Shown in pieces: positions 44,141 through 64,000 of a stretch of 64,000 bases of DNA. The stretch is from Alphaproteobacteria bacterium (GTDB lineage: Bacteria > Pseudomonadota > Alphaproteobacteria > Micropepsales > Micropepsaceae): the NCBI GenBank assembly GCA_947467345.1, contig CANIHD010000018.1, positions 1 to 64,000 on the forward strand. Direction: 5' to 3'. The number at the start of each line of letters is the position of its first letter. Position 1 is the first letter of the stretch. The position numbers were made by a program, and so were the translations under genes. The notes under the pieces were generated by a model. That model searched no databases. It was not told the origin of the DNA and saw nothing but the letters and a program-made list of their open reading frames with translations.

Positions 44141-46048
44141 ATGAAGAACGCAGTTCGCGGTCGCGCGCTTATGGCGTGCGCAGCGCTCACGGTTTTGGGA
44201 TTTGCAGTGTCGGCTGACGCACAAGGCGAGGCCGCTGTGGTGATTCGCGGCGGCACCTTGATCGACGGCAATGGCGGCGCGCCTATCGCCAATTCCGTCA
44301 TCGTCATTCAAGGCAATCGAATCGCGGCAGCGGGACGCGCCAATGCGGTGCGCGTTCCGGCCGGCGCCCAAATCATCGACGCGACCGGCAAATGGATCGT
44401 TCCGGGCCTAGTCGACGCCAAGTCGAATTGGAATTGGCCCTATGGCGAGGCCTATCTGCGTTGGGGCGTAACCAGCGCGATGGTCACCGGCACGCGCAAC
44501 GATACTGGTATCGCCGATCGCGACGCGGTCAATCACGGCATCTACGCGGCGCCGCGTCTCTATCAAGGCTTCCTCAATCTTCGCGGCCCCGGCGCCGATG
44601 GAAAAAAGCCTGACACCTATGTGGCCGGCGACGGCAACCGCTTGGTGCGCGATGCCGAGAATGCGCGCGCGCAAGTTCGCTACAACATCGAATCCGGCGC
44701 CGATTTTATCGGCACCAATGACGGTGATGGCGATCCCGCGATCTTCGCGGCCATTTCTGACGAAGCACACAAGGCCGGCGTTGCCGTCGTCATGCGCTGT
44801 GTCGGGCCGCAGACGCGCGGCAAGGAGTGCGTGCTCGCGGGCGCCGACATCATGGTGCACACGGGCGAGATCGGGAATCAGATCGCGAAAGATCCGGCCA
44901 AGTGGGCGAATTATATCGCGTTGCCGCCCGATCCGTTCTGCGACATGGATGAGGCCAAGGAAAAGGAGATGATCCAATTCCTGCTGCAGCATCCGGGTAC
45001 GGCACTCGAGCCCGACATGATGGCGACGGACAGAGGTTTCCATTCGCAATGGAAGCGCGTGCAGCAGGAAGACGAAGAGTTCTTCAAGGATCCGGTGTTG
45101 CGGGCCTATTACCCGCTTTATCAAATGCAGCATACGCTCGACAACGTGCGCGATCCCTCAACTTACCTGACGCCGGCGCAACTTGAACTGCGTGCTTGCG
45201 GCTACAAAAACAAAGTGAAATTCCTGCACGATTACACGCAGGCCGGCGGCCATCTCGTCGCTGCTAGCGACATCTATCAGTCGCCGCCGGGTCTCGGCGT
45301 GCATCAGGAAATGGCGGCGTATCAAGAAGAAGTCGGCATGCCGCCGATGAAGGTGCTGCAATCAGGCACCAAATGGGTCGCCGATCACTTCAAGATTAAA
45401 GATATCGGTACCATCGAAGCAGGCAAATTCGCTGACATTCTCATCGTCGATGCCAATCCGCTTACCGACATCAACAATCTTCGCCAGATCAACATGGTGT
45501 TGAAAGACGGCAAGGTCGTTGATCGCAATTACCACGCCGATTACAAAGGCTGGCTGTTCTACAACAGCCCGCAGGAAACCGAATTCGGCCCTGTTGTCGA
45601 AGGCGGTCAATGGGCAGCGGCGCTGAAGCAGGCGACGTTCCGCCCCGGTGGCGGCGGCAACGCCAACATCACCGGCGCGCAGGCGCCGCAAGTGGTTGAA
45701 GATCCGTGGGCGTCGCCGACGCCGGGTGTGGAAACGATCATGCCGCACACGGTGATTCAGGGCAGCGCGGCACAGACGCTGGTCATTAGGGGCTTCAACT
45801 TCGTCAAACGCTCGGTCGTCTATGTCGACGACAAAGCCGTGCCCACGCAGGTGATCAGCCGCACGGAGTTACGCGCCACCGTCGATCAGGCATTGCTGAT
45901 GGCGGCGGGGAATAAGTCCATCGTGGTCAAGAACCCGCTTCCGCTGGATGCGCCGGAATGGGGTCCGAAATCGAACACCGCGCATTTGCTGGTGCCGTTC
46001 TCGTTCACGACCAAATGGTCCCAGAATAAGGACATGGTGAAATACTGA
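44141..46048 (+). CDS. Amidohydrolase-like protein with C-terminal IPT/TIG domain, paralogue 1
   Basis: Signal peptide (residues 1-27), composite amidohydrolase fold (28-465) and an IPT/TIG-like beta domain (about 530-620, 'MPHTVIQGS', 'GFNFVKRSVVYVDD', 'VISRTELRATV'). The fold resembles imidazolonepropionase-like amidohydrolases: opening 'GGTLIDGNGGAP', closing 'AGKFADILIVDANPL'. The first-strand metal motif HxH is absent ('PGLVDAKSNWNW'). The strand-4 lysine and strand-5 histidine positions read 'FIGTND' and 'MRCVG'. Only the strand-6 histidine (H240, 'VHTGEI') and strand-8 aspartate (D377, 'AASDI') remain. Secretion is clear; hydrolysis is doubtful. GGGAGGA lies 6 bases before the ATG. First of seven paralogues. 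Confidence 0.85.
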   Translation: MKNAVRGRALMACAALTVLGFAVSADAQGEAAVVIRGGTLIDGNGGAPIANSVIVIQGNRIAAAGRANAVRVPAGAQIIDATGKWIVPGLVDAKSNWNWPYGEAYLRWGVTSAMVTGTRNDTGIADRDAVNHGIYAAPRLYQGFLNLRGPGADGKKPDTYVAGDGNRLVRDAENARAQVRYNIESGADFIGTNDGDGDPAIFAAISDEAHKAGVAVVMRCVGPQTRGKECVLAGADIMVHTGEIGNQIAKDPAKWANYIALPPDPFCDMDEAKEKEMIQFLLQHPGTALEPDMMATDRGFHSQWKRVQQEDEEFFKDPVLRAYYPLYQMQHTLDNVRDPSTYLTPAQLELRACGYKNKVKFLHDYTQAGGHLVAASDIYQSPPGLGVHQEMAAYQEEVGMPPMKVLQSGTKWVADHFKIKDIGTIEAGKFADILIVDANPLTDINNLRQINMVLKDGKVVDRNYHADYKGWLFYNSPQETEFGPVVEGGQWAAALKQATFRPGGGGNANITGAQAPQVVEDPWASPTPGVETIMPHTVIQGSAAQTLVIRGFNFVKRSVVYVDDKAVPTQVISRTELRATVDQALLMAAGNKSIVVKNPLPLDAPEWGPKSNTAHLLVPFSFTTKWSQNKDMVKY

Positions 46049-46069
46049 GCAGAGAATCCGAGTGAAAGC

Positions 46070-46103
46070 GGGGGCGGGCGCCATGCGCCCGTCCCCTTTT
46101 TCT
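46070..46103 (+). terminator. Intrinsic terminator of paralogue 1
   Basis: GGGGGCGGGCGC-CAT-GCGCCCGTCCCC is followed by five T and a pyrimidine-rich run, a strong intrinsic terminator 22 bases past the stop. Confidence 0.85.
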
Positions 46104-46280
46104 TCTCCGGCAGGTAGGCGCAATTCTTTCACGGGCGCGTGAACGCGGGTACTGACTGTGCGTGATCCGGTTGGCGCGGCTGGAGCCATCAAAGGCAATG
46201 TGTCAGAATTGCCCCAGCGTTGGCGCCATCGGGGGGCAGTGCTATCACATACAGCGACAACAAATTCTTGGGAGAGTCAC

Positions 46281-48143
46281 ATGGCAAGAACGATTTTGCG
46301 CGCCGCGTTGATCGGCGGCGTAGCGCTCGCGTTTTCCGGCGCACCGATGTCGGTGGCGCAGCAGGAAGCTGCTCTGGTCATCCAGGGCGGCACACTTATT
46401 GACGGCAATGGCGGCGCACCAATTCCGAATGCCACCATCGTTATTCAGGGCAATCGTATTCTCGCGGCGGGCCGCAATGCACGCGTACCCGCAGGCGCGA
46501 CCATCATCAACGCGGCCGGAAAATTCATTGTTCCGGGATTGATCGACGCCAAAGGCAATTGGAATTGGAATTACGGCGAACCGAATCTGATCTGGGGCGT
46601 CACCAGCGTCATCGTCAGTGGCGGCCGCAGCAATCAAGGCTTTGCCGAACGCGACGCGATCAATCGCGGCATCTATCGCGGCCCACGCCTCTTTCAGACG
46701 GGCGTAACGCTCGCCGGCGCCGGACCGATGAACAACCGTCCCGACAATTATCGTCCGGGCGACGGCAACCGTATCATCAAGACGCCGGAAGATGCGGTCG
46801 CGCATGTGCGCACGATGGTTGAAGCCGGTGCCGATATCATCACGTTCCAAAACGGCGATGGATCGCTCGAAGCTCACCGCGCAGGCGTCGTTGAAGCGCA
46901 GCGTCTCGGCAAGGGAATCGATTTCCGCGCCATGGGTCCGCAAGTGCGCGCTAGCGAAGTCTGCGACATGGGCAAGGGCATCGTTTACGTTCATACCGGC
47001 AATGTTGGCGCGCAGATCGCCAAAGACCCGATGAAATGGGCGACCTATATCGGTCTTCCGCCAGATGCCTATTCCGACATGGACGAAGCCAAAGTCGGTC
47101 CCATGATTCAGAAGCTGGTTGCGTGCGATGCCTATCTTGAGCCGGACCTGATGGCGGCGGATCGTGGCTTCCACAAAAACTGGGCGCGCGTGCAACAGGA
47201 AGACCGCGAGTTTATGACCACGCTGCCGGCCTATTATCCGCAGCATTCCGCGCGCGGTGTCCTTGAGAACGTCAAGTCACCGAACACCTATTTGAACGCC
47301 GAGCAATTGCAGGTCCGGCAAACCGGCTTCAACAATCACATGTCGTTCCTGAAACGCTTCGTTGCAGCGGGCGGCAAGCTTGTCGCCGCTTCCGACGCGC
47401 CGCAAACCCATCCGGGTCTTGGCACACACCAGGAAGCGACCGCTATTGTCGAGGACGTGGGGCTGACGCCGATGCAAGGCCTCCAGTCGGCGACGTCATG
47501 GGTAGCTGACGGTTTCAAGCTTCCGGATGTCGGCCGCGTTCAGGCCGGCAAGTTTGCCGACATTTTGATCGTCAACGCCAACCCGTTGGCGGACATCAAG
47601 AACCTGCGCAACATCGACACCGTCATCAAGGACGGTAAGGTCGTCGATCGCCGTTATGACCAGAACTACAAAGGCAACATCTTCGCGGCGCGTCTCGACG
47701 ATGATTTCGGACTTTCGCTCGGCGGCGACGACTGGGCAGCTAAGAATAAAGAGGTCAATTGGAACGCCAATTCCCGTAACGGCGGCTTCGCCGGTGCCGG
47801 CGGTATTGATTCCGAGAAATCGCCGACACCGGGCATCGAGGCTTTTGCACCGCACACGGTCCTTCGCGGGAGTCCGGTCACGGTGGTGAAGCTGACAGGT
47901 TACAACTTCGTCACGGGCAGCAAAGCTTTCGTGGATGGCAATGAAGTGCCCGCGAAAGTCGTGAGCCGCACCGAAGTTGAAGTCAGTGTTCCGGCGAATT
48001 TGCTGGCGGAAGCTGGGCGTCGCGACATCGTCGTGCGCAATCCGAAGCCCTTGGTATCACCGGTTTGGGGCGATACGTCGAATATCGCGCATCTTCTCGT
48101 GCCGTATGAATTCACGAAAATCCTGCCGCAGCCGAAATGGTAA
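46281..48143 (+). CDS. Amidohydrolase-like protein with C-terminal IPT/TIG domain, paralogue 2
   Basis: This 620-residue paralogue has a signal peptide ending 'MSVAQQ'. The HxH site reads 'DAKGNWNW' (89-96). It belongs to a second subgroup with paralogues 4 and 7: strand 4 reads 'DIITFQNGDG' rather than DFIGTNDG, strand 5 'DFRAMGPQ', and strand 6 keeps a histidine in 'VYVHTGNV'. The strand-8 aspartate is in 'AASDAPQTHPGLGTHQE', the only member with a proline/histidine insertion variant there. The IPT-like end reads 'GYNFVTGSKAFVDGNEVP' and finishes 'YEFTKILPQPKW'. GGGAGAG precedes the ATG. Natural substrate unknown. Confidence 0.85.
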   Translation: MARTILRAALIGGVALAFSGAPMSVAQQEAALVIQGGTLIDGNGGAPIPNATIVIQGNRILAAGRNARVPAGATIINAAGKFIVPGLIDAKGNWNWNYGEPNLIWGVTSVIVSGGRSNQGFAERDAINRGIYRGPRLFQTGVTLAGAGPMNNRPDNYRPGDGNRIIKTPEDAVAHVRTMVEAGADIITFQNGDGSLEAHRAGVVEAQRLGKGIDFRAMGPQVRASEVCDMGKGIVYVHTGNVGAQIAKDPMKWATYIGLPPDAYSDMDEAKVGPMIQKLVACDAYLEPDLMAADRGFHKNWARVQQEDREFMTTLPAYYPQHSARGVLENVKSPNTYLNAEQLQVRQTGFNNHMSFLKRFVAAGGKLVAASDAPQTHPGLGTHQEATAIVEDVGLTPMQGLQSATSWVADGFKLPDVGRVQAGKFADILIVNANPLADIKNLRNIDTVIKDGKVVDRRYDQNYKGNIFAARLDDDFGLSLGGDDWAAKNKEVNWNANSRNGGFAGAGGIDSEKSPTPGIEAFAPHTVLRGSPVTVVKLTGYNFVTGSKAFVDGNEVPAKVVSRTEVEVSVPANLLAEAGRRDIVVRNPKPLVSPVWGDTSNIAHLLVPYEFTKILPQPKW

Positions 48144-48183
48144 TCGGCGAGCGCTGATTTCAAATTGTAGCGAAGTGTACCGG

Positions 48184-48219
48184 ATGACGGCGAGGGTTCT
48201 TCCTTGCCGTCATTTTTTT
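48184..48219 (+). terminator. Intrinsic terminator of paralogue 2
   Basis: ATGACGGCGAGG pairs with CCTTGCCGTCAT around a short loop, followed by seven T. It lies about 40 bases past the stop. Confidence 0.85.
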
Positions 48220-48344
48220 GCATTGCACTCTCAGGATCGGCGCTAGAGCGCGCACTCGTCCTATGTCATATAGGCGCCAGACACCGCTGGGGGGTGTTCC
48301 CACACATCGAACGCTGCCACCGGACGTCCTAGGGAGGATTTCTA

Positions 48345-50162
48345 ATGAAAAGAATTTTGCTTGCATGCACGGCGATAGGCGGCATTGCGCTGCTGACGTC
48401 GAGCCTGCCGACGCAGGTGAACGGCGCTGCCGCGCAAGGGCAAGCGCTTGTTATTCAGGGAGGCACGCTGATCGACGGTAATGGCGGCGCGCCTGTCGCC
48501 AATTCCGTCATTGTTATTCAGGGCAATCAGATTACCGCCGCCGGCCCGGCAGCGCAGGTGCAAATTCCCGCGGGCGCGCAGATCGTCAACGCGCAGGGGA
48601 AATTCGTTCTTCCCGGTCTGTGGGACTGCCAGCAAAACTTCTCGTGGTTCTATTCTGAACCGCAATTGAATCAGGGCGTCACGTCGGGCTGCGATATCGG
48701 CAACGGCGATGAATTGTCCATCGTGCATCGCGATGCGGTGAACCGCGGCAAGATTCTCGGCTCACGCACCTGGATCGGCGTTGCCCATCTGGGTGGCGCG
48801 GATCCGTCCGAATTGACGGGTTGGGAAACACCGCTCCAGACGCGTCTGATTCCGAAGACTGTCGAGGAAACCCGCACTGTCGCGACGCGCCTGCTCGATG
48901 CAGGCACCGACATCGTCATGTTCCATGACGGCAATAATTTCACGCCGGACATGGTGAAAGCAGGCTGCGACGTCGCGCATGCTCGCAATAAACCGTGCTC
49001 GCAACGCACCGGTGGCCGCATGCCGCCAGCGGTTGGCGCGGCGGCCGGCATCGACATCATCCCGCATTCGTCGGGCATCGGCGCCGCCGTGCAGCGCGAT
49101 GGTTTGATGATCATGGGCGGCGACGCTGATCGTTATGCCGATATGGACGACGCTAAGGCGCGCGCTTTGATTGACATTCTCATCCGCGAAGACGTTCATC
49201 CGGTTCCGAACATCATCCATATCTTCCCGACCTATCCGAAGGACTGGGCGCGCATGTATGGCGAAGTCCAGAAAGCGATGACCGATCCGGGCCTGAGGGC
49301 TTACTACCCGAAGGAGTTTTACGAAGAGATGACCCTGTCTCGCACGCGCTATGACCAAGGCGCGGTGCGCGAACGTCGTCAGCGTTCCTATATGAACATG
49401 ATCAAATTCCACAAAATGCTGATCGATGCGGGTGGCAAGCCGCTGATTGGCGGCGACACAAACGGCACCAAGGTTGCCGGCTATGTCGTCCATGAAGAGA
49501 TGGAGATCTGGCAGGAAGGCGGCATTCAGCCGATGCAGATCATCATGGCGGCCACCAAATGGGTGGCGGATGCCATGAAGGTCGGTGATCGCTACGGCAC
49601 CATCGCGCCGGGGAAAGTCGCCGACATCATCGTGGTCAACGCGAATCCGCTGCAGGACATCGCGAATCTGCGGCAGATCGACACTGTCGTCTTCGACGGG
49701 AAGGTCATCGATCGCGGTTATCACGCGTGGTACGAAACGCCGTTCGGCGGTGTTGTCGACAATATCCGCGCGGTCGAAGACCTGCCGTGGGTGAAACAGC
49801 TGCGTGCGGAATATCCGGCGCCCAATAATCCGGGCGGCGCGAACGCTCCGGACCCGGGTGAATCACCGCAACCGGGCATCATGACCATGACACCGGTTAT
49901 GATCACGCAAGGCGATCCGACAACCACGCTGCGCCTACAGGCCTTCAATCACGTCGCGCGTTCGCGCGTGTTGTTTGACGGTTTGTCGGTGCCATGGCGG
50001 CGCATCAATGCCAACGAGATCGAGGTTACGCTCGACGAAAACCTTCTGCGCCGCGCCGGTCGCTTCGACATCGTCATTGCCAATCCGGCGCCGCTTACGG
50101 CGCCGAAATGGGGCAATGGCGTATCCAATAAAGCGCATCTCATTGTGAATTATCGCTACTGA
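48345..50162 (+). CDS. Amidohydrolase-like protein with C-terminal IPT/TIG domain, paralogue 3 (divergent)
   Basis: This 605-residue member is the most divergent of the array. The first-strand site is 'WDCQQNFSW' (93-101) with cysteine and glutamines. Strand 4 reads 'DIVMFHDGNNF', the strand-5 region 'PCSQRTGGRMPP', and the retained strand-6 histidine is in 'IDIIPHSSG'. The strand-8 aspartate appears as 'IGGDTNGTKVAGYVVHEEM', lacking the PPGLG motif of the others. The IPT-like domain ('AFNHVARSRVLFDGLSVP') is present but shorter, ending in 'HLIVNYRY'. AGGGAGGA lies before the ATG. The signal peptide covers residues 1-30. It may represent a third function within the array. Confidence 0.85.
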   Translation: MKRILLACTAIGGIALLTSSLPTQVNGAAAQGQALVIQGGTLIDGNGGAPVANSVIVIQGNQITAAGPAAQVQIPAGAQIVNAQGKFVLPGLWDCQQNFSWFYSEPQLNQGVTSGCDIGNGDELSIVHRDAVNRGKILGSRTWIGVAHLGGADPSELTGWETPLQTRLIPKTVEETRTVATRLLDAGTDIVMFHDGNNFTPDMVKAGCDVAHARNKPCSQRTGGRMPPAVGAAAGIDIIPHSSGIGAAVQRDGLMIMGGDADRYADMDDAKARALIDILIREDVHPVPNIIHIFPTYPKDWARMYGEVQKAMTDPGLRAYYPKEFYEEMTLSRTRYDQGAVRERRQRSYMNMIKFHKMLIDAGGKPLIGGDTNGTKVAGYVVHEEMEIWQEGGIQPMQIIMAATKWVADAMKVGDRYGTIAPGKVADIIVVNANPLQDIANLRQIDTVVFDGKVIDRGYHAWYETPFGGVVDNIRAVEDLPWVKQLRAEYPAPNNPGGANAPDPGESPQPGIMTMTPVMITQGDPTTTLRLQAFNHVARSRVLFDGLSVPWRRINANEIEVTLDENLLRRAGRFDIVIANPAPLTAPKWGNGVSNKAHLIVNYRY

Positions 50163-50187
50163 GATTTGCGCCTGCGTAAGTAAAGAG

Positions 50188-50220
50188 CCCACGGCGAGCG
50201 CTCGCCGTGGGTTTCTTTTT
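50188..50220 (+). terminator. Intrinsic terminator of paralogue 3
   Basis: CCCACGGCGAGC is directly followed by its complement GCTCGCCGTGGG and then TTTCTTTTT, a perfect 12 bp stem. Confidence 0.88.
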
Positions 50221-50295
50221 GGGCGTATTTTCTTTTCGTAGAAGTTAGTACGAAGGCGGCCTCGGATGCCGTAAAGTGCCGGCAGAGGGAATGTC

Positions 50296-50856
50296 ATGCG
50301 CCGTATCGCTTTTACCGCCGCCGCTGTGTTCGCGTTGTTTGCGCCGCCCTTAGCCGCGCAAGAACATGAGCCTCTGGAATGGCAGGAATATGCCTATCCC
50401 GAACTCGGGATCGCGAAGGAATTTCCTGCTTCGCCGCAACGCCAGACGGGAAAATATCAGACTGAAGTAGTGGGCGAAAACGCTGTGCCATCGGTTGTTT
50501 ACTTCGTCGATTTCGGCGATCTGATATTTCAAATGACGGTGGTGGATTTGCGCGCGCCCGAACATGTACTGCGCGCGGCGAATATTTTGGCGGAATGCAT
50601 CTTTTTAGCGGAATCCGCCGGTCTCCCGCTGGCCAACCTTCCGTTGGATGTCAAGGACGACACGCAATTCGGCGTTCATGGCCGGGTCGTCAGCGTCGAT
50701 CTGAATTACAATCTTGGCGTGCGGCAGACGGCATGCCTGCACAAAGATGGCCGACTCTACAAAATGGAAGCGACGATGGTGCATCCGGAAGAGGAGGACG
50801 GCGAAGCTATTGCGCGATTCGTAACCTCGCAGCGTTTCGAACTCAGGAAGCCTTAG
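50296..50856 (+). CDS. Secreted protein of unknown function, small pair member A
   Basis: The 186-residue protein has a signal peptide (residues 1-20, 'APPLAAQE') and a mature alpha/beta domain with no family I recognise. It shares with the next gene the blocks 'GIAKEFPASPQRQTGKYQT', 'FQMTVVDLRA', 'AECIFLAESAGLPLA' and 'TACLHKDGRLYKMEATMVHP'. Two cysteines (near residues 98 and 146) are conserved in the pair and could form a disulfide. It begins 133 bases after amidohydrolase paralogue 3, beyond that gene's terminator, and is separated by 4 bases from pair member B. Its place inside the amidohydrolase array suggests a related periplasmic role, by position only. Confidence 0.75.
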   Translation: MRRIAFTAAAVFALFAPPLAAQEHEPLEWQEYAYPELGIAKEFPASPQRQTGKYQTEVVGENAVPSVVYFVDFGDLIFQMTVVDLRAPEHVLRAANILAECIFLAESAGLPLANLPLDVKDDTQFGVHGRVVSVDLNYNLGVRQTACLHKDGRLYKMEATMVHPEEEDGEAIARFVTSQRFELRKP

Positions 50857-50860
50857 CGTG

Positions 50861-51418
50861 ATGCGTCCGGCAGGATTCCTTGTTGCGTTGCTACTCGCGG
50901 CTTTCGCCGCGGCGCCTGCTTCGGCGGCGTTCCAGTATTATGTGTTTCGCGAATTTGGCGTTGCTAAGGAGTTTCCGCTCGAACCGACACGGCGCGAGGC
51001 GGAGTACCGCACTCCGCTTTTGGGGCGCGCCGTTCCGGCGACGATCTTCGAGACGACAGAAGACAATATGGTCTATCGCTTCACGGTCGCGGATATGCGC
51101 GCCGTCGATCTGGTCGCGCGCAGCGCCGGCCTCTACGCTGAATGCATCGCCATGGCGGAAGCGGAAGGCAAAGTCCTTGCCCGCATGCCGCAGCGCGTCG
51201 AAGACGGAACGGCCTTTCGGGTCTATGGCCAGCTCACCAGTGTCGATCTCGCTGAGGCGGGCGGGCGCAAGCAAACCAATTGTTTTCTCAACAAAGGTTG
51301 GCTCTACAAAGTCGAATCGATTGTCTTGCCAGCCCGTGGCGAGCCCAATGCAGCGGCAGCATTACGCTTTTCCACATCCTTGCGCTTTCGAATCGATCAG
51401 GCCCCAGACAGTCCTTAG
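50861..51418 (+). CDS. Secreted protein of unknown function, small pair member B
   Basis: This 185-residue protein is a clear paralogue of the preceding gene: after a signal peptide ('AAAPASAAF') come 'FGVAKEFPLEPTRREAEYRT', 'YRFTVADMRAVD', 'AECIAMAEAEGKVLA' and 'TNCFLNKGWLYKVESIVLP', with the same two cysteines. Similarity is moderate, so the duplication is old. A GTG three bases upstream is an alternative start. The pair is probably one operon (4-base gap). No intrinsic terminator is visible after it before amidohydrolase paralogue 4, 180 bases downstream. Confidence 0.75.
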   Translation: MRPAGFLVALLLAAFAAAPASAAFQYYVFREFGVAKEFPLEPTRREAEYRTPLLGRAVPATIFETTEDNMVYRFTVADMRAVDLVARSAGLYAECIAMAEAEGKVLARMPQRVEDGTAFRVYGQLTSVDLAEAGGRKQTNCFLNKGWLYKVESIVLPARGEPNAAAALRFSTSLRFRIDQAPDSP

Positions 51419-51598
51419 GCGGCGCATCTGTTTCATGCTGCTAGTGCGAAGACGGTTCGCCAATTGTCGCGTGATTGACATAGTTGCCGGAAGATTGCCG
51501 CGCGTCTGATGGCGCGGCGCTTTCGGTCCCGCGCAAGCTGTGCGAAAAGAGCGGCTTGGACGCTTGGGAAGCGGAACCAAAAAATCTGGGAGGATTAA

Positions 51599-53497
51599 AT
51601 GAAGACGAAGCTCTTGCGGACGTCGCTTGTCTCGTGCGCGGCACTCATTGCCGTCGGCGCGGCATTGCCGGTCGGCGCACAGCAAGGCCAGGCGCAAGCC
51701 GTGGTCATTCAAGGCGGCACGCTGATTGACGGCAATGGCGGCGCGCCCGTCGCGAATTCCGTCATTGTCATTCAGGGCAATCGCATTACCGCTGTCGGCA
51801 GAGCGGGCGCGGTGCAGGTCCCCGCCGGTGCGCAAGTCATCAACGCAGCTGGCAAATGGGTTTTGCCGGGATTGTTCGACGCCAAGGCGAACTGGAACTG
51901 GATGTATGGTGAAGCTTTCCTGCACTACGGCGTTACAAGCGCCATCGTCAGCGGCGGCCGCAACAATACCGGCTCCGCGGTGCGAGATGCCATCAATCAT
52001 GGCGTCTTCGCGGGACCGCGTCAGTTCCATGCGCTGGTGACCATCAACGGTCCGGGCCCGATGCGCGACCGCGCCGACAATTACCGGCCTGGTGACGGAA
52101 CGCGGGTCATCAAGACGGGTGAAGAGGGTGTCGCGCATGTCCGCGCCATGGTGGACGCTGGCGCCGATATCATCACCTTCCAGAATGGCGACGGTCCGCC
52201 CGACGTGTTTCGTCCGGCAGTCGAAGAAGCCCAGCGCCTCGGCAAGGGCATCGACTTCCGTTCCATGGGTCCGCAAACGCGCATCAGCGAAGTTTGCGAA
52301 ATGGGTAAGGGCATCGTGTTCGTGCACACCGGCAATGTCGGCACGCAGATCGCGAAAGACCCGGCGAAATGGGCGACCTATATCGCGCTGCCGCCGGATG
52401 CCTATTCCGATATGGATGAAGCCAAGATCGCTCCGATGATCCAGAAGCTTCGCGGCTGCGATGCCTATCTGGAACCCGATCTGATGGCGACGGCGCGCGG
52501 CTTCCACAAGAATTGGAAGCGCGTGCAGCAGGAAGCGCGGGACGTTTTCCAGGATAAGGAGATGATGAAATATTATCCCGAGTACGCAATCCGCGATCTC
52601 TGGGAAAATGTTCAATCCCCTGAGGAATATCTGACGCCGGCGCAAATTCAAGTTCGCGCTGCGGGCTTCAAGAACCAGATGGTCTTCCTGAAGCGCTATC
52701 TCGATGCGGGCGGCAAGTTCGTTGCGGCATCGGACATTACGCAAACGCCGCCGGGACTTGGCGTGCACCAGGAAATGACGGCGATGGTGGAAGATGTCGG
52801 CATGACCCCGATGCAAGCCATCATGGCTGGCACGAGTTGGGTTGCGGACGGCTTCAAGATTCCGGATGTCGGCCGCGTTGCGCCCGGCAAGTTCGCGGAT
52901 ATTTTAATCGTCAGTGCAGATCCTCTGGCCAACATCCACAATCTCCGCCAGGTCGACACGGTTCTGAAGGACGGCAAGGTCGTGGACCGCGGATATCATT
53001 CGTGGTTTGCAGCTCATATGTTCGAACTGACCGACACCGACGACGATACGGTGGTGGCGGCTCCGCAATGGGCGGCGGCTTTGAAGCAGGCGACATTCCG
53101 CCCCGCCGGCGGCGGCAATGTGAATGTGCAGGGTGCGGCCGCTCCGCCGCCTCCGGTTACGACGCCGTTTAATTCGCCGACGCCGGGTATTGAGAAGTTC
53201 ATGCCGCACACGGTTCTGCGTGGCACGGGCGACACGGTCATTACGGTGACGGGCTTCAACTTCACCACCGAAACGCGCGGCTTCTACGATAATTTCGCGG
53301 TACCGACACAGATCGTGTCACGTACGGAAGCGCGGCTTACAATCTCGCAAAATCTTCTGGCGCGGGCGGGCAGGTTCGAGATCGTCATGAAAAACCCGGA
53401 ACCTCTAGCAAATCCGGAGTGGGGCGCGGCCTCGAACAAGGCCTATCTTCTGGTTCCGTTCGAATACACGAAGTTGCTGCCGCAACCGCGCTGGTAG
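51599..53497 (+). CDS. Amidohydrolase-like protein with C-terminal IPT/TIG domain, paralogue 4
   Basis: This 632-residue member belongs with paralogues 2 and 7. The first-strand site is 'FDAKANWNW' (94-102), strand 4 'DIITFQNGDGPP', strand 5 'DFRSMGPQTR', strand 6 'VFVHTGNV', and strand 8 'AASDITQTPPGLGVHQEM'. An inserted acidic stretch 'ELTDTDDDTVV' follows the amidohydrolase core, and a proline-rich linker ('AAAPPPPVTTPFNSP') leads to the IPT-like domain ('MPHTVLRGTGDTVITVTGFN'). It ends 'EYTKLLPQPRW'. GGGAGGA is positioned before the ATG. The signal peptide ends 'LPVGAQQ'. Confidence 0.85.
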   Translation: MKTKLLRTSLVSCAALIAVGAALPVGAQQGQAQAVVIQGGTLIDGNGGAPVANSVIVIQGNRITAVGRAGAVQVPAGAQVINAAGKWVLPGLFDAKANWNWMYGEAFLHYGVTSAIVSGGRNNTGSAVRDAINHGVFAGPRQFHALVTINGPGPMRDRADNYRPGDGTRVIKTGEEGVAHVRAMVDAGADIITFQNGDGPPDVFRPAVEEAQRLGKGIDFRSMGPQTRISEVCEMGKGIVFVHTGNVGTQIAKDPAKWATYIALPPDAYSDMDEAKIAPMIQKLRGCDAYLEPDLMATARGFHKNWKRVQQEARDVFQDKEMMKYYPEYAIRDLWENVQSPEEYLTPAQIQVRAAGFKNQMVFLKRYLDAGGKFVAASDITQTPPGLGVHQEMTAMVEDVGMTPMQAIMAGTSWVADGFKIPDVGRVAPGKFADILIVSADPLANIHNLRQVDTVLKDGKVVDRGYHSWFAAHMFELTDTDDDTVVAAPQWAAALKQATFRPAGGGNVNVQGAAAPPPPVTTPFNSPTPGIEKFMPHTVLRGTGDTVITVTGFNFTTETRGFYDNFAVPTQIVSRTEARLTISQNLLARAGRFEIVMKNPEPLANPEWGAASNKAYLLVPFEYTKLLPQPRW

Positions 53498-53543
53498 CCT
53501 ACATAAGCGGCAAAAGTCGCATCGAGATGTAACGAGAAATATC

Positions 53544-53576
53544 ACGCGGCCGGGTCCTCCCGGCCGCGTTTTTCTT
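53544..53576 (+). terminator. Intrinsic terminator of paralogue 4
   Basis: ACGCGGCCGGG-TCCT-CCCGGCCGCGT is followed by a T-rich run (TTTTCTT). Confidence 0.87.
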
Positions 53577-53688
53577 AGCATTCGAAGCTCACGTCCCTTT
53601 AGCGCAATGAGCGCCTGTGCCAAGATTACTGCCGGCGGGCACGCAATTTCGTGATTGCGAAAAAGACCTGCCTACGGGGAGAACAATC

Positions 53689-55572
53689 ATGGGCAGGGCA
53701 GCATTGCGGGGCACGCTGTTGGCGTGCGCGGCGGCACTGGTGTGGGGAGCATCGCTTCCAGTCGGTGCACAAGGACAACAAGCCGTTGTGATTCAGGGCG
53801 GTACGCTGGTCGATGGACTCGGCGGCGCACCAGTCGCCAATTCGGTCGTCGTCATTCAGGGCAATCGCATCACGGCTGTGGGACGTGCCGGTCAGGTGCA
53901 GGTGCCCGCCGGCGCGCAAGTCATCAACGCCGCCGGGAAATGGGTAACGCCGGGTCTGGTCGATGCCAAGGCGAATTGGAATTGGCCCTACGGCGAGGCC
54001 TATCTCTATTGGGGCGTGACCAGCGCCATGATCACCGGCGCGCGCAACGATCAAGGCGTTGCCGAGCGCGATGCCGTGAACCACGGAATCTTTCCGGGCC
54101 CGCGCCTCTATCAAGGCATTGTCAATCTTTCGGGACCTGGCCGCGACGGCATGAAGGTGGACAACGCGCAGCCCGGCACCGGCAATCGCATGGTGCGCAA
54201 TGTCGAAGATGCGCGTCAGAAAGTTCGCGACAATATCGACGCCGGCGCCGATTTCATCGGCACGCCGGATGGCGACGGCGATCCGGCCATCTTCGCAGCT
54301 ATTGCCGATGAAGCGCATAAAGCGGGCCTCGGCGTCGTCATGCGTTGTGTCGGACCGCAAACGCGCGGCAAGGAATGTGTGCTGGCCGGCGCCGACGTGA
54401 TGATTCACACCGGCGAAATCGGCAACCAGATCGCCAAGGATCCGGCGAAATGGGCCAATTACATTGGCCTTCCGCCCGATCCCTATTGCGACATGGATGA
54501 GGCCAAGGAAAAGGAGATGATCCAATTCCTGCTTCAGCACGACACGGCGCCGGAACCGGATTTCATGGCGGCCGATCGCGGCTTCCCGTCGAGTTGGAAA
54601 CGCGTGCAGCAGGAAGCGCGCGACGCGTTCAACGATCCGACGCTGCGTTCCTATTATCCGGAGTTCATGATACGCGATCTCTGGCAGAATGTTGAAGACG
54701 CGCAAAATTATCTGACGCCGGCTCAATACGAGACGCGCATGTGCGGCTTCAAGAACCACGCGAAATTCATCGGCGATCTCATCGCTGCCGGTGGTCATGC
54801 GGTCGCGGCGAGCGACATCACTCAAACGCCGCCGGGGCTTGGTCTGCATCAGGAAATGGCGGTCTTTCAAGAAGACGCGAAAGTGCCGCCGATGAAGGCG
54901 CTGCAAGCAGCGACAAGCTGGGTGGCGCATCACTTCAAGATCAAGGATGTCGGCTCGATTGAGGTCGGCAAGTTCGCCGACATCTTGCTCGTCGATGCCG
55001 ATCCCACCGTCGACATTCTTAACATGCGCAAGATCAACATGGTGATGAAAGACGGCAAGGTTTGGGACCGCCAATATCATCCGTGGTTCAAAGGCCACAT
55101 CTTCGCCAACGATCCGCAGAATCAGGAATTCGGCGGCGCGGTTACCGGTCTTGCATGGGAAGCGGGTTTGAAAGCCGCGACCAACCGGCCGGGCTTTGCC
55201 GGCAATGGACCGGCGGCGGCACCCCCGCCGGTGGCCGATCCGTTCAACTCACCCTCGCCGGGCATTGAGTCGGTGATGCCGCGGACTATCATTCAAGGCA
55301 CGGTCGATACCGTAGTCACCCTGAAAGGCATCAATTTCGTCAAACGCTCGGTCGTCTATGTGAACGAGACGCCGGTGCCGACGAAAGTGGTGAATCGGAA
55401 CGAGATCCAGGCGACGGTCGATGCCAATCTGCTGGCCCAGGGGGGCAAAATCCACCTGACCGTCCGCAATCCGGCGCCGCTGGCGACCTCGGAATGGGGT
55501 GGAACGTCCAATCCGGCGCATATCCTCATTCCGTTCTCCTTCACCGCCAAATGGTCCCACAACAAGTTCTGA
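53689..55572 (+). CDS. Amidohydrolase-like protein with C-terminal IPT/TIG domain, paralogue 5
   Basis: This 627-residue member pairs with paralogues 1 and 6. Site residues: 'VDAKANWNW' (91-99), 'DFIGTPDGDGDPAIFAAI', 'MRCVGPQTRGKECV', 'IHTGEIGNQI' and 'AASDITQTPPGLGLHQEM'. The stretch 'FCDMD/YCDMDEAKEKEMIQFL' is shared almost unchanged with paralogue 1. The linker is 'GPAAAPPPVADPFNSPSPG', and the IPT-like domain reads 'MPRTIIQGTVDTVVTLKGI'. The start ATG 53689 is preceded by GGGGAGAA; a longer frame beginning at 53617 lacks both a ribosome binding site and a proper signal peptide. Confidence 0.85.
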   Translation: MGRAALRGTLLACAAALVWGASLPVGAQGQQAVVIQGGTLVDGLGGAPVANSVVVIQGNRITAVGRAGQVQVPAGAQVINAAGKWVTPGLVDAKANWNWPYGEAYLYWGVTSAMITGARNDQGVAERDAVNHGIFPGPRLYQGIVNLSGPGRDGMKVDNAQPGTGNRMVRNVEDARQKVRDNIDAGADFIGTPDGDGDPAIFAAIADEAHKAGLGVVMRCVGPQTRGKECVLAGADVMIHTGEIGNQIAKDPAKWANYIGLPPDPYCDMDEAKEKEMIQFLLQHDTAPEPDFMAADRGFPSSWKRVQQEARDAFNDPTLRSYYPEFMIRDLWQNVEDAQNYLTPAQYETRMCGFKNHAKFIGDLIAAGGHAVAASDITQTPPGLGLHQEMAVFQEDAKVPPMKALQAATSWVAHHFKIKDVGSIEVGKFADILLVDADPTVDILNMRKINMVMKDGKVWDRQYHPWFKGHIFANDPQNQEFGGAVTGLAWEAGLKAATNRPGFAGNGPAAAPPPVADPFNSPSPGIESVMPRTIIQGTVDTVVTLKGINFVKRSVVYVNETPVPTKVVNRNEIQATVDANLLAQGGKIHLTVRNPAPLATSEWGGTSNPAHILIPFSFTAKWSHNKF

Positions 55573-55591
55573 CCTTGGCTTGATCTGCAGG

Positions 55592-55628
55592 GGGCGCGGC
55601 TGGAGAACCCGGCTGCGCCCTTTTCTTT
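55592..55628 (+). terminator. Intrinsic terminator of paralogue 5
   Basis: GGGCGCGGCTGG pairs with CCGGCTGCGCCC (two G-U pairs) around AGAAC, followed by TTTTCTTT. Confidence 0.85.
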
Positions 55629-55786
55629 GCCCGCCGCCGACCCGCCACCGGTGCCTATCGAAAGGGCAATGATTTCGGCTTTTTCACACTTCCACGGCCT
55701 TCCGGGCTCCTGGCGGCTGTGCCAATATCCGCCCAAGACGGGCTCACGAATTTGTGAACCGAGACCCGTTTTCGGGAGGACGATCA

Positions 55787-57682
55787 ATGCAAAGGAAGAT
55801 TTTTCGCGGCGCGCTTATGGCGTGCGCGGCAGCTCTGCTGTGGAGCGCATCGGACGGTGTGAATGCTCAAGGCCAGCAGGCGCTGGTGATTCAAGGCGGC
55901 ACTCTGATCGACGGCAATGGCGGCGCCCCGGTGGCCAATTCGGTCGTCGTCATTCAGGGCAATCGCATTGTTGCGGTCGGCGCGGCTGGTCGCGTGCAAG
56001 TGCCTGCCGGTGCGCAGGTCATCAATGCCGCCGGCAAATGGATCACGCCTGGCCTGGTGGACGCGAAAGCAAACTGGAATTGGCAATATGCGGAAGCGTT
56101 CCTGCGTTGGGGCGTGACGTCGGCGATGATCACCGGCACGCGTAACGACACCGGCGTTGCCGATCGTGACGCGATCAATCACGGCATGTGGCCTGGCCCG
56201 CGTCTCTATCAGGGCGTCATCAATCTTCAGGGCGGCGGCATGGACGGCAAGAAGCCGGACAATTATCGCCCCGGCAATGGCGGCCGCATCGTTCACACGC
56301 CGGAAGAGGCGAGGGCACAGGTCCGTTACAACATCGAATCCGGCGCGGACTTCATCGGCACCAATGACGGCGAAGCTCCGCCGGAAGTTTTCGCAGCCGC
56401 TGCAGACGAAGCCCACAAAGCAGGTCTCGGCGTTGTCATGCGTTGCGTGGGTCCGGGCACACTCGCGAAGAACTGCGTTGAAGCGGGCGCCGACGTGATG
56501 ATTCACACCGGTGAAATCGGCAACGTCCTTGCGAAGGACCCGACGAAATGGGCCACCTATATCGGCCTGCCGCCCGACCCCTATTGCGATATGGATGCGG
56601 CGAAGTCGAAGGACATGGTCGCGTTCCTCGTCGCGCACAACACGGCGCTTGAACCCGACCTCATGGCCGCTGACCGCGGCTTCGGCTCCACCTGGAAAAA
56701 GATCCAGCAGGAAACGAAGGATGCGTTCACCGACGAGAACCTGCTCGCTTACTACCCAGCCTATGCCATCGCCGATGTGATCGAAAATCAGAAAGATCCT
56801 TCGACCTATTTGCCGGCGGACAAGCTCGCCAATCGCAAATGCGGTTACGACAACCACGTGAAATTCTTGCACGATGTTGTCGAAGCCGGCGGGCATATCG
56901 TCGCCGCGTCGGACATTACGCAAACGCCGCCTGGTCTCGGCCTCCATCAGGAAATGGAGCTGTTTCAGGTCGATGTGAAAATGACGCCGATGAAAGTGTT
57001 GCAGTCGGCGACCAAATGGGTAGCCGATCACTTCCACATTAAAGATGTCGGTTCCGTCGAACCCGGAAAATACGCCGACCTCATCATCGCCAATGCCGAT
57101 CCGCTGCTCGACATCCGCAATTTGCGGAACATCAGCATGGTGATCAAAGACGGCAAGGTGCAGGACCGCGAATATCATCCGTGGTTCCGCGGTTGGCTGT
57201 TCGCTAACGATCCGCAGAATGCTGATTTCGGCAGCGTTGTCGAAGGCGACAATTGGGCTGATGCGTTGAAGCGCGCCACGTGGCGTCCCAACATCGCGGC
57301 GGCACGCGGCGAGCCGGGCATTCCGGGATCGATCCCCGATCTCAACACCTCGCCTACACCGGGTTTGGAATCGGTCTATCCGCACACCCTCATTCAGGGC
57401 AGCCCCACCACGGAGCTGACGCTGAAGGGCTTCAACTTCGTGAAGCGGTCAGTGGTCTATGTCGACGACATGCCGGTGCCGACACGCGTCGTCAGCCGCA
57501 CGGAAATTCGTGCCACTGTCGATGCCAACACGCTCGCGCAAGCCGGCAATTACGACATCACGATCCGCAATCCGAAACCGGTCATCGATGTCCAATGGGG
57601 CGACCGTTCCAATAAGGGTCACTTGCTGGTGCCCTTCTCTTTCACCACCAAGTACTCGCGGAACATGGACGTGAAGCCGTAA
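55787..57682 (+). CDS. Amidohydrolase-like protein with C-terminal IPT/TIG domain, paralogue 6
   Basis: This 631-residue member is closest to paralogues 1 and 5. The first-strand site is 'VDAKANWNW' (91-99), strand 4 'DFIGTNDGEAPPEVFAAA', strand 5 'MRCVGPGTLAKNCV', strand 6 'IHTGEIGNVL' and strand 8 'AASDITQTPPGLGLHQEM'. The amidohydrolase core closes with 'PGKYADLIIANADPL'. The IPT-like domain reads 'GFNFVKRSVVYVDDMPVP', nearly identical to that of paralogue 1, and the protein ends 'SFTTKYSRNMDVKP'. The ATG at 55787 has GGGAGGA six bases upstream. Confidence 0.85.
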   Translation: MQRKIFRGALMACAAALLWSASDGVNAQGQQALVIQGGTLIDGNGGAPVANSVVVIQGNRIVAVGAAGRVQVPAGAQVINAAGKWITPGLVDAKANWNWQYAEAFLRWGVTSAMITGTRNDTGVADRDAINHGMWPGPRLYQGVINLQGGGMDGKKPDNYRPGNGGRIVHTPEEARAQVRYNIESGADFIGTNDGEAPPEVFAAAADEAHKAGLGVVMRCVGPGTLAKNCVEAGADVMIHTGEIGNVLAKDPTKWATYIGLPPDPYCDMDAAKSKDMVAFLVAHNTALEPDLMAADRGFGSTWKKIQQETKDAFTDENLLAYYPAYAIADVIENQKDPSTYLPADKLANRKCGYDNHVKFLHDVVEAGGHIVAASDITQTPPGLGLHQEMELFQVDVKMTPMKVLQSATKWVADHFHIKDVGSVEPGKYADLIIANADPLLDIRNLRNISMVIKDGKVQDREYHPWFRGWLFANDPQNADFGSVVEGDNWADALKRATWRPNIAAARGEPGIPGSIPDLNTSPTPGLESVYPHTLIQGSPTTELTLKGFNFVKRSVVYVDDMPVPTRVVSRTEIRATVDANTLAQAGNYDITIRNPKPVIDVQWGDRSNKGHLLVPFSFTTKYSRNMDVKP

Positions 57683-57710
57683 GTTCTGATTACGTTGCTG
57701 TTCTTCTGCA

Positions 57711-57746
57711 CACGGCGGGTGTTCCACACCCGCCGTGATGCTTTTT
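57711..57746 (+). terminator. Intrinsic terminator of paralogue 6
   Basis: CACGGCGGGTG-TTCCA-CACCCGCCGTG is a perfect 11 bp stem followed by ATGCTTTTT. Confidence 0.88.
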
Positions 57747-58012
57747 GAGGCACCTTATGTGTCCTGGGAACCTCGTTTTCATGACGCTTTCTTGTCTCAC
57801 ACCCTCGTGAAGGGGCTGGAACAGTCACGCTTGCGCGGCACCTTCTTTCTGCTCTTGCAGTCTGCTCGTAGCTAGGGAATCTATGCCGCCTTGCGCTCTG
57901 TTGCGGCCTCCCTATGGTGGCCGCCGCCTAGCTCCTGCATTGCACGACGTTCCCGGAAGAGGAACGCGTTGGCAGCCGGAAGGGCATAGGGGACGCTTCT
58001 GGAGGACGACCA
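57747..58012. other. Leader region of paralogue 7
   Basis: This is the remainder of the 330-base gap between paralogues 6 and 7. It should hold the promoter of paralogue 7 and ends in GGAGGA before the ATG. No supported coding sequence or clear regulatory repeat was found. Confidence 0.35.
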
Positions 58013-59920
58013 ATGAAGAGAATGAAATTTGCTGCGTCGCTGTTGGCCGGCGCAGCGCTTTTGTCCATCGGGGCTTCGCTCCCGGTGGGCGCGCAGCAAG
58101 GCCAAGTCCTTGCGATCGTGAACGGCAATCTTTGGGACGGCAATGGCGGCCCGACGGTTCTGAATGCGACCGTCATCATCACCGGCAATCGCATCACGCA
58201 GGTCGGACAACGCTTGCGCGTTCCCGCCGGTGCGCAGACGATCGACGCCACAGGCAAGTGGATCATTCCCGGCCTGATCGACGCCAAAGCAAATTACAAT
58301 TGGCAATACGGCGAAGCGTTCCTGAACTGGGGCGTCACCTCCGCCATGATCTCCGGCCCGCGCAACAACCAAGGTCTTGCCGAGCGCGACGCGGTCAACG
58401 CGGGACTTTATAAATCGCCGCGCCTCTATCAAACAGGCATCACAATCGGCGGCCCCGGCCCGATGCTCAACCGCGCCAACAATTATCAACCCGGCGACGG
58501 CGATTGGATTCCGAAGGCACCCGAAGAAGCCGTGAATCACGTCAAGGCGAATATCGACGCCGGCGTTGACTTCATCACCTTCTCGAACGGCGACGGCCCG
58601 ACGACCATCTATGATCCCGCCGTGAAATATGCGCTTGCTCAAGGCAAGGGCGTTGTATTCCGCGGCATGGGTCCGCAGACGCGCGGCACCGAAGTGTGCG
58701 CGATGGGACGCGGCATTGTGTACGTCCACACCGGAAATCTCGGCACGCAAGTGGCCAAGGATCCGGCGAAATGGGCGACCTATATTCGCTTGCCGCCGGA
58801 CGCGTGGTCGGACATGGACGAAGCCAAGGTCCAGCCGATGATCGACCGGATGCGCGGCTGCGATGCCTATCTCGAGCCCGACCTGATCGCGACCGCTCGC
58901 TCGCTGCCGAGCAATTGGAAGCGTCACCAGGAAGAGACCAATAATTTCTTCACCGATCCGAATCTGCTCGCCTACTACCCGGCCTACAGCATCGCCGACG
59001 TGAAAGAGAACGTGAAAGGTTATGAGACCTTCACGCCTCCGGATCAGGTTCCGATGAAACTGGCTGGGTTTAAAAACCAAGCCGCGTTCCTGAAGCGCTA
59101 TGTTGATGCCGGCGGCAAGATCGTCGCCGCCAGCGACATCACGCAGTCGGTGCCGGGTCTTGGCCTGCATCAGGAAATGGCCGTGTTTGTTGAAGATGTG
59201 GGTTTGACGCCGCGTCAGGCACTGCTCTCGGCAACGAGCTGGGTGGCTGACGGCTTCAAGATTCCCGACATCGGACGCATCCAGGCGGGCAAACTTGCTG
59301 ACATCGTCATCATCGACGCCGACCCGATCTTCAACGTCATGGCGCTCCGTCGCATCAGCACCGTCATCAAAGACGGCAAGGTGATCAACCGCGCCTATGA
59401 CCCGAACTTCAAGGGTTGGCTGTTCCACAATTCGTTGGACGATGATTTCGGACCGACCGTGTCGGACATGGATTGGGTCGAAGGGTTGAAGGAAGCGACA
59501 TGGAATCCGAACGCCAACGCGACGCGCGGCGAACGGGGCATTCCGGGCCGTATCCCAGACTTCAACAACTCGCCGACGCCCGCGATCGAAACAATCTCCA
59601 CGCACACGCAACGCGCAGGCGCGGGACCCTTGAACATCGCTGTGAAGGGCTTCAACTACACCACCAAGTCCGAGCTCTACGCCATTCGCCGTACGTCGGT
59701 GAAGGAAGAGGTCGCAACGAAGGTGCCGACGGAAGTTGTCAGCCGTACCGAGCTGCATGCCACCATCCCGGCGGCTTTGTTCGCCGAACCGGGCAAAGTG
59801 CATCTCGAAGTCCGCAACCCGCCGCCGCTGTCGTCGCCGCGTTGGGGTGCTGTTTCGAACCGCGCTCACATTCTGGTGCCGCTCAACACGGCAACGGCGT
59901 TCTTCTCGGCGCCGTACTGA
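58013..59920 (+). CDS. Amidohydrolase-like protein with C-terminal IPT/TIG domain, paralogue 7
   Basis: This 635-residue member closes the array. It belongs to the subgroup of paralogues 2 and 4: first-strand site 'IDAKANYNW' (89-97), strand 4 'DFITFSNGDGPTTIY', strand 5 'VFRGMGPQTRGTEV', strand 6 'VYVHTGNLGTQV' and strand 8 'AASDITQSVPGLGLHQEM'. The opening is 'NGNLWDGNGGPTVLN', where the other six have GGTLIDG or GGTLVDG. Its IPT-like domain has an insertion ('AIRRTSVKEEVATKVPTEV') and the C-terminus 'LNTATAFFSAPY' differs from all others. The signal peptide ends 'LPVGAQQ', identical to paralogue 4. GGAGGA precedes the ATG. Confidence 0.85.
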   Translation: MKRMKFAASLLAGAALLSIGASLPVGAQQGQVLAIVNGNLWDGNGGPTVLNATVIITGNRITQVGQRLRVPAGAQTIDATGKWIIPGLIDAKANYNWQYGEAFLNWGVTSAMISGPRNNQGLAERDAVNAGLYKSPRLYQTGITIGGPGPMLNRANNYQPGDGDWIPKAPEEAVNHVKANIDAGVDFITFSNGDGPTTIYDPAVKYALAQGKGVVFRGMGPQTRGTEVCAMGRGIVYVHTGNLGTQVAKDPAKWATYIRLPPDAWSDMDEAKVQPMIDRMRGCDAYLEPDLIATARSLPSNWKRHQEETNNFFTDPNLLAYYPAYSIADVKENVKGYETFTPPDQVPMKLAGFKNQAAFLKRYVDAGGKIVAASDITQSVPGLGLHQEMAVFVEDVGLTPRQALLSATSWVADGFKIPDIGRIQAGKLADIVIIDADPIFNVMALRRISTVIKDGKVINRAYDPNFKGWLFHNSLDDDFGPTVSDMDWVEGLKEATWNPNANATRGERGIPGRIPDFNNSPTPAIETISTHTQRAGAGPLNIAVKGFNYTTKSELYAIRRTSVKEEVATKVPTEVVSRTELHATIPAALFAEPGKVHLEVRNPPPLSSPRWGAVSNRAHILVPLNTATAFFSAPY

Positions 59921-63433: not shown

Positions 63434-64000
63434 AGAATTGTCAGGTTAACTGCGTGAGGCTACAGTGATCGGGTAGGGGCGGAACATCTATGCAGCGACC
63501 GTGGCGATTGCCCACGCTGCGTGGGCCTCGGCACGGAAGAGGCGAAGTGTCGATCGGCTAATGAGATGTCGTTGAAGGTTGAAGGTGTTGTAGATGGCGG
63601 CGTGGGTTGCAAGGAATCTCTGGGCTGAGCGCTGAGATTTGAACTTCTGCTGTTTGCGCTCCCGTCGTCGAATGACGAGATGCGAATTCTCTGCCCTGTT
63701 GTTGCGGAGCATGGATCCAGGCTGGTGACGCTTTGAACAGCCGAGTTTCCGAAAAGCTGCCCTATAAGAAGCCAGCTTGTCGGTGGCATAGGTTTCGGGG
63801 CGCACACCGTGATTCTTGAGTAATTTTCGCAACAATCTCAGGGCTGCATGGGTATTACGCCGCTTCTGGACCAGCATATCCAGAACTTCGCCTTCGTCGT
63901 CGACGGCACGCCAAAGCCACATCCGTTTACCGCCGATCTTCACCACCATTTCGTCGAGGTGCCAGCGGCCCGTCGGCTTAGGGCGAGAACGCCTGAGACC
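63434..64000 (-). mobile_element. IS6-family insertion sequence, copy 3 (right part outside window)
   Basis: The left terminus reads agaattgtcaggttaac, sharing TGTCAGGTTAA with the left end of copy 2. The element extends past the window edge. It is a separate, more divergent IS6 lineage, in the same orientation as copies 1 and 2. Confidence 0.8.
63488..64000 (-). CDS. IS6-family transposase, 5' end truncated by window edge
   Basis: The visible C-terminal 170 residues cover the catalytic domain. Reading in from the window edge the frame gives 'GLRRSRPKPTGRWHLDEMVV' before 'KIGGKRMWLWRAVDDEGEVL'. The acidic triad appears in 'WHLDEMVV', 'YATDKLASY' and 'NRAENSHL'. Compared with the other two copies it has many substitutions ('HGVRPETYATDK' against YVPDHFVTDG), so it is a different IS. 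No frame disruption is visible in the part present. Confidence 0.9.
   Translation of the reverse strand, partial: GLRRSRPKPTGRWHLDEMVVKIGGKRMWLWRAVDDEGEVLDMLVQKRRNTHAALRLLRKLLKNHGVRPETYATDKLASYRAAFRKLGCSKRHQPGSMLRNNRAENSHLVIRRRERKQQKFKSQRSAQRFLATHAAIYNTFNLQRHLISRSTLRLFRAEAHAAWAIATVAA

Follow-up and report, generated by a model that had tools for sequence, protein, structure and literature searches.

A seven-gene array that may be a tandem expansion of a metal-free amidohydrolase-superfamily branch in a freshwater alphaproteobacterium

We analysed the first 64,000 nucleotides of contig CANIHD010000018.1 (assembly GCA_947467345.1; hereafter the window) from a bacterium of the Micropepsaceae, which encode seven amidohydrolase-like proteins between positions 44141 and 59920 (W1 to W7, numbered in order). 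Judged from sequence, the prospects are evenly balanced that this array arose by tandem expansion within the amidohydrolase superfamily, from a branch that had become metal-free. We place about half of our belief in the reading that the products are secreted, metal-free, putative ligand-binding proteins.

The metal site of the superfamily is described by six ligand columns, namely the two His of the HxH motif on strand 1, the Lys of strand 4, the His of strand 5, the His of strand 6 and the Asp of strand 8 (HHKHHD). These columns read KNGRHD in W1, W5 and W6, KNTRHD in W2, W4 and W7, and QNMRHD in W3. Strand 1 has no HxH, with KxN in six proteins and QxN in one; strand 4 carries G, T or M where a carboxylated Lys (or Glu) would be expected, and the strand-5 His is replaced by Arg in all seven window genes and in all 54 sequences of the clade described below. 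The strand-6 His and strand-8 Asp are retained in 7/7 window proteins and, across the clade, in 53/54 and 39/54 sequences, respectively, the latter position being Asn in 15. A first-pass annotation of this DNA had described the same losses and the same two persisting ligands, and the strand-1 motifs that it quoted (DAKSNW, DAKGNW, DCQQNF, DAKANW three times and DAKANY) are correct for their reading frames. It had also taken the strand-1 replacement as the key sign. This replacement is present in the window genes but varies across the clade, in which the position of the strand-1 Lys carries K, Q or M and, rarely, E or L. A better signature is the strand-5 Arg, as no other replaced ligand position is identical in all 54 sequences. 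The ligand pattern goes beyond chance, since each of the genome's 11 full-length copies has it and it recurs throughout the 54-sequence clade.

The seven genes, each beginning at its likely start, and the first nucleotides of their ligand-column codons are as follows (ORF, open reading frame):

W1: 44141..46048, + strand; signal peptide, amidohydrolase-fold domain and TIG-like domain, with a longer ORF possible from 44072; codons K44420, N44426, G44711, R44795, H44858, D45269
W2: 46281..48143, + strand; architecture as W1, ORF open from 46158; codons K46551, N46557, T46842, R46926, H46992, D47394
W3: 48345..50162, + strand; divergent Q-branch copy (DCQQNFSW), architecture as W1; codons Q48630, N48636, M48918, R49005, H49065, D49455
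W4: 51599..53497, + strand; architecture as W1; codons K51884, N51890, T52175, R52259, H52325, D52733
W5: 53689..55572, + strand; architecture as W1, ORF open from 53617; codons K53968, N53974, G54259, R54343, H54406, D54814
W6: 55787..57682, + strand; architecture as W1, structure predicted; codons K56066, N56072, G56357, R56441, H56504, D56912
W7: 58013..59920, + strand; architecture as W1 (DAKANYNW); codons K58286, N58292, T58577, R58661, H58727, D59135

Each protein contains 605–661 aa, all frames are open end to end, and identities to W1 across the array range between 39 and 66%. GGAG-type ribosome-binding sites lie upstream of the chosen starts, with a weaker GGGAGAG at 46281; the site for 53689 was identified by eye. 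By eye, all seven N-termini resemble type I signal peptides, with a basic and a hydrophobic segment followed by AxA/AQ. The Pfam Amidohydro_1 (PF01979) cut-off was passed by 7/7 proteins, mostly via the C-terminal half of the barrel, and NCBIfam NF058597 (choice-of-anchor Z / TIG-like repeat) matched near the C-terminus of each with 38.5–70.1 bits (cut-off 30). The best full-length NCBIfam similarity was to NF051886 (Xaa-Pro dipeptidase), yet its 88–125 bits fall far below the 500-bit cut-off.

Structure prediction for W6, based on a 56-sequence alignment, gave a model with a predicted local distance difference test (pLDDT) of 92.1 and a predicted template-modelling score (pTM) of 0.90. The closest PDB structures were prolidases and Arg-carboxypeptidases (3mtw, 2p9b, 3be7, 2qs8 and 9kov), with VIA Z of 32–34 and a root-mean-square deviation of 2.9–3.7 Å over 333–357 residues. 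The predicted fold is that of the superfamily, a TIM-barrel plus beta-sandwich with Amidohydro_1 above its cut-off, and the barrel is intact in this confident model. A second model, of a relative with ligand columns HHKQHD (L031), reached a pLDDT of 91.0 and its order of elements matches that of W6.

Such a reading of the ligand columns depends on the register of the alignment, and here several results agree. The array proteins have spacings of X1, X93-94, X27-28, X19-21 and X129-136, which fall inside the ranges of the published superfamily motif, HaXHb-X83-140-K-X25-70-Hc-X18-25-Hd-X52-143-D (PMC4407906), so that the register is right. Profile alignments placed the HxH of 2qs8 and 9kov onto the KxN column gap-free, and the prolidase strand-5 and strand-6 His onto the Arg and His columns of the array. 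In the W6 model, the first five columns lie in or right after the strands at 90-95, 189-192, 215-219 and 237-239. The gap between the array and HHKHHD is bridged by relatives whose TIG-like tails are intact and whose ligand sets are complete or nearly so. The alignment is thus supported by the motif spacing, by the confident model with its match to prolidases and Arg-carboxypeptidases, and by intermediate sequences. The first-pass annotation had named as a danger an alignment error, with other conserved His or Asp residues in the metal site; the window's branch has no other conserved His or Cys, although an Asp/Glu cluster may be present.

Relatives of the array were found at 79 loci when 84,980 species genomes were scanned. 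A tree of 95 rows was built by a 'quick' method with the ligand columns excluded, in which some outer rows are long-branched. All 54 rows of the clade, each with the strand-5 Arg, form one branch (Shimodaira–Hasegawa-like approximate likelihood-ratio test, SH-aLRT, 100) beside and among HHKQHD relatives, and originate from Alphaproteobacteria, Acidobacteria and Gammaproteobacteria. The outer rows are mostly HHKHHD, followed by HHKQHD or HHNQHD, in which the strand-5 His has become Gln, plus one LHKNHD. Within the clade, the K branch has 25 rows, which belong to the window's genome or to metagenome-assembled genomes (MAGs) of its genus, with KxN on strand 1 (MxF/I/L in four), and includes six of the seven window genes. 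The Q branch comprises 29 rows from Acidobacteria, Gammaproteobacteria and MAGs labelled Rhodospirillaceae, together with W3 and its relatives; its strand 1 is mostly QxS, QxN or MxS, and its strand 8 carries Asp or Asn. W3 thus belongs to the Q branch and cannot be read as a sister of the other window genes that has decayed. On the tree, the nearest relative of W4 is L019:3599-5488, one of three arrayed genes in a different genome of the genus.

This distribution shows that the window genes descend from putatively secreted, TIG-tailed relatives of Xaa-Pro/Xaa-Arg carboxypeptidases. It likewise shows the apparent order of change in the sampled relatives: the strand-5 (beta-metal) His was first replaced by Gln while HxH and Lys were still present, and later, in the clade to which the array belongs, HxH and Lys disappeared as strand 5 acquired its invariant Arg. 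Several loci (L031, L032, L034, L039 and L047-L050) encode proteins with intact HxH and Lys and a strand-5 Gln (VVAQPIGP), often in tandem, with five related genes at L031; the amidohydrolases of this kind are probably one-metal intermediates. We found no account of the 54-sequence clade in the open-licence papers searched.

Selection was assessed by parsimony codon counts on the tree, a rough method that undercounts the partly saturated synonymous change, so that the ratio of nonsynonymous to synonymous change (dN/dS), ~0.36 clade-wide over 591 sites, is inflated. Residues are given in W6 numbering from Met1, which is one higher than that of the codon-count script. The strand-5 Arg, present in 54/54, showed 14 synonymous and 2 nonsynonymous steps, both of the latter arising where a change between CGN and AGR codons takes two steps. 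Synonymous to nonsynonymous steps were 12:1 for the strand-6 His, 14:0 for D270 and 15:0 for E103 and, within the K branch, 6:1 for the Lys, 9:3 for the Asn and 3:0 for the Asp. The position of the strand-4 Lys looks unconstrained in the K branch (3:4, p=0.43). Residues new to the clade in comparison with HxH relatives include W99, R219, W303 and Y323. The counts show purifying selection acting on the predicted array proteins, and this codon profile is that of a putatively reused pocket, not of decay. The earlier proposal of a new function, not decay, is borne out by a clade spanning several phyla, by the dN/dS and by synonymous change at the replaced positions while the residue stays fixed; for the comparison of selection that it had called for, the strand-5 Arg is constrained and the strand-4 position looks unconstrained in the K branch.

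It is therefore hard to see the seven genes as decaying pseudogenes or as products of misalignment, an explanation that we hold to be very improbable. Sequence alone cannot show expression and nothing else speaks for it, whereas the intact frames, ribosome-binding sites, dN/dS of ~0.36, many conserved sites, correct motif spacing and intermediate sequences all contradict it. The proteins could also be structural or scaffold pseudoenzymes, in which the domain was kept for oligomerisation or surface display together with the TIG-like domain (found in 7/7) while the pocket stands empty. The residues of the core barrel, beta-sandwich and TIG-like domain are indeed well conserved; however, an empty pocket would not be expected to have its Arg and His under purifying selection or to gain conserved aromatics, and we consider this explanation improbable.

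Both metal sites are broken, the alpha site by the loss of HxH and Lys and the beta site by the loss of the strand-5 His, and the K-branch alignment revealed no other conserved His or Cys apart from the known columns. For this reason a mononuclear site of known type is very unlikely, a grade that extends to any one- or two-metal site of known type, and there is a strong case that no catalytic metal would be bound at the ancestral site. The first-pass annotation had offered three options, of which the mononuclear metal site thus largely falls away, leaving a binding protein and metal-free chemistry as candidates. As doubtful as the scaffold is a metalloenzyme whose site has moved or is unusual and draws on the remaining His, Asp and Glu. 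H240, D270, D376 and E389 are kept, and molinate hydrolase works with a reduced site (PMC4407906). Nevertheless, that enzyme keeps both beta-site His where the clade has Arg in 54/54, no new His or Cys has become conserved, and D270 and E389 are not replacement ligands, since they are equally conserved in HxH-bearing intermediates.

We propose with moderate confidence that the pocket was reused for binding and that Arg, joined by Lys in the window's branch, supplies the positive charge that formerly came from the metal ions. Together with the persisting His, and with the Asp where many members keep it, Arg/Lys would hold a carboxylate-bearing ligand. The proteins would bind or deliver ligands outside the cytoplasm, and the diversity of these ligands would then be mirrored in the increase to 11 copies. 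Catalysis without metal, with the strand-8 Asp as base and Arg, His and Lys binding the substrate, is rather unlikely, although the K branch, with 25 sequences that include six window genes, shows 100% conservation of Arg, His and Asp alike. LigI, a 2-pyrone-4,6-dicarboxylate lactonase, is a superfamily member described as working without metal, with the strand-8 Asp as base; this precedent did not turn up in the open-licence papers searched. The Asp is Asn in 15/29 members of the Q branch, which retains Arg and His.

Binding was ranked ahead of metal-free catalysis because of the loss of this candidate base in those 15 members and because of a linkage to transporters. Among Q-branch loci, linkage to a Na_sulph_symp/CitMHS (DASS/SLC13) transporter was seen in six of the eight sampled transporter-bearing genomes, from Proteobacteria and Acidobacteria. 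The transporter is divergent from and adjoins the Q-branch gene in L054, L058 and L081, lies ~1 kb away in L062 and ~4–5 kb away in L059 and L093, and was found in 8/14 genomes searched, once each at E 1e-60 (in two pieces in the genome of L093). Four of the six linked loci are so closely related that they represent fewer than four independent events. The strand-8 Asn is found in five of these six members.

Several points weigh against ligand binding as the preferred interpretation. The transporter was absent from three searched genomes of the window's genus and the neighbourhoods of sampled K-branch loci revealed no common partner, so that the case for a carboxylate comes from the sister branch. 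Full conservation of both His and Asp in the K branch also suits metal-free catalysis and makes it a serious rival there. There may be an Asp/Glu-rich metal site involving, for example, D270, E389 and D376. Finally, two independent losses of the ligands are disfavoured by approximately unbiased (AU) tests, yet not rejected at 0.05 (p=0.058 and 0.073).

The window's genome, from a freshwater bacterium (2.49 Mb, 96% complete), encodes 11 full-length members, all without HxH, and other genomes of the genus encode 1–8 each, several of these genomes being incomplete. Across 289 genomes sampled from the class, two matched at E 1e-60, one of them the window's own. At the same threshold, member-holding acidobacterial and gammaproteobacterial genomes mostly have 1–3 relatives; exceptions are a gammaproteobacterial MAG with 6 and an acidobacterial MAG with 30, in which the members sampled are largely of ligand-bearing kinds. 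On contig C14 of the window's genome, L175:4256-4585 encodes the C-terminal half of an amidohydrolase in a 217-aa frame with a stop-filled upstream part, possibly a broken gene or a frameshift.

Family members mostly stand alone or in tandem (seven in the window, three in L019). The neighbours of the other four members in the window's genome share nothing; they include PCuAC, TauE and a lytic transglycosylase by Pfam, and PriA-like and pyruvate-dehydrogenase-like proteins by eye. Two further genes lie between W3 and W4:

First small protein: 50296..50856, + strand; 186 aa, signal-peptide-like N-terminus
Second small protein: 50858..51418, + strand; 186 aa, paralogue of the first (41% identity)

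These proteins have no Pfam or NCBIfam match. Their family includes another pair on contig C22 of the same genome and many relatives, and the search across relatives yielded no member outside the genus; being genus-restricted, with the C22 copies away from the amidohydrolase-like family, the pair was rejected as a partner. Two other candidates near many members were also rejected. DUF6152 (PF19649), with 'AHHSxAxxD' near the signal-peptide end, is present in 15 to at least 150 copies per genome in clade-carrying genomes of 2.6–4.6 Mb (G324, G326, G327, G319 and others), and its excess near members is small and subject to biased locus choice. The secreted-looking 'PDLSGVW' proteins, without a Pfam match, number 21–105 copies per genome in the window's genus (G000-G006). 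At the end of the window, a transposase-like ORF (63488-64000), IS6-like by eye, runs off into the rest of contig C18.

Pseudoenzymes of this superfamily are known as isolated cases, whereas here a whole multi-phylum clade has lost both metal sites and keeps a new invariant pocket residue, the strand-5 Arg. Sequences with all six ligands, with the strand-5 His changed to Gln, and with all but two ligands lost survive side by side, and the order in which a metal site was dismantled and reused is therefore testable in the laboratory. We tentatively suggest, with doubt somewhat outweighing conviction, that a metallo-carboxypeptidase lineage gave rise to an extracytoplasmic carboxylate-binding (or metal-free catalytic) family in which fixed Arg/Lys cations replaced two metals, and which later grew to 11 paralogues in a freshwater bacterium with a small genome while intermediates survived. 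The eleven genes of the window's genome are probably mislabelled where automatic annotation calls them amidohydrolase or Xaa-Pro dipeptidase.

Loss of metal ligands has precedents in the superfamily, namely the CRMPs, pseudo-dihydroorotase and LigI, and in part molinate hydrolase. The dihydropyrimidinase-related CRMP/DPYSL proteins and pseudo-dihydroorotase are non-catalytic members that lost their metal ligands; PDB 4b90-4b92, of this group, were among the profile matches. These proteins are cytoplasmic, belong to another subgroup and have other binding roles, and are not known to carry an invariant strand-5 Arg. LigI belongs to another superfamily branch and keeps the HxH histidines. The nearest solved structures are Cc2672-type Xaa-Arg carboxypeptidases and prolidases of the amidohydrolase superfamily (3mtw, 3be7, 2qs8 and 2p9b; best matches at Z ~34 and 2.9–3.5 Å), with a like fold and strand order; in contrast to these, the array proteins lack HxH and the strand-4 Lys, have Arg for the strand-5 His and carry an additional C-terminal TIG-like domain. 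Among solved structures, the best sequence match is to molinate hydrolase and phenylurea hydrolase B (4ub9, 4wgx and 4whb), in which HxH is already reduced to N-x-H. In molinate hydrolase, Asn replaces one His of the HxH, the Lys is uncarboxylated and both beta-site His are kept (PMC4407906). That enzyme keeps its Lys, binds one metal and is active, whereas in the array proteins both metal sites are broken.

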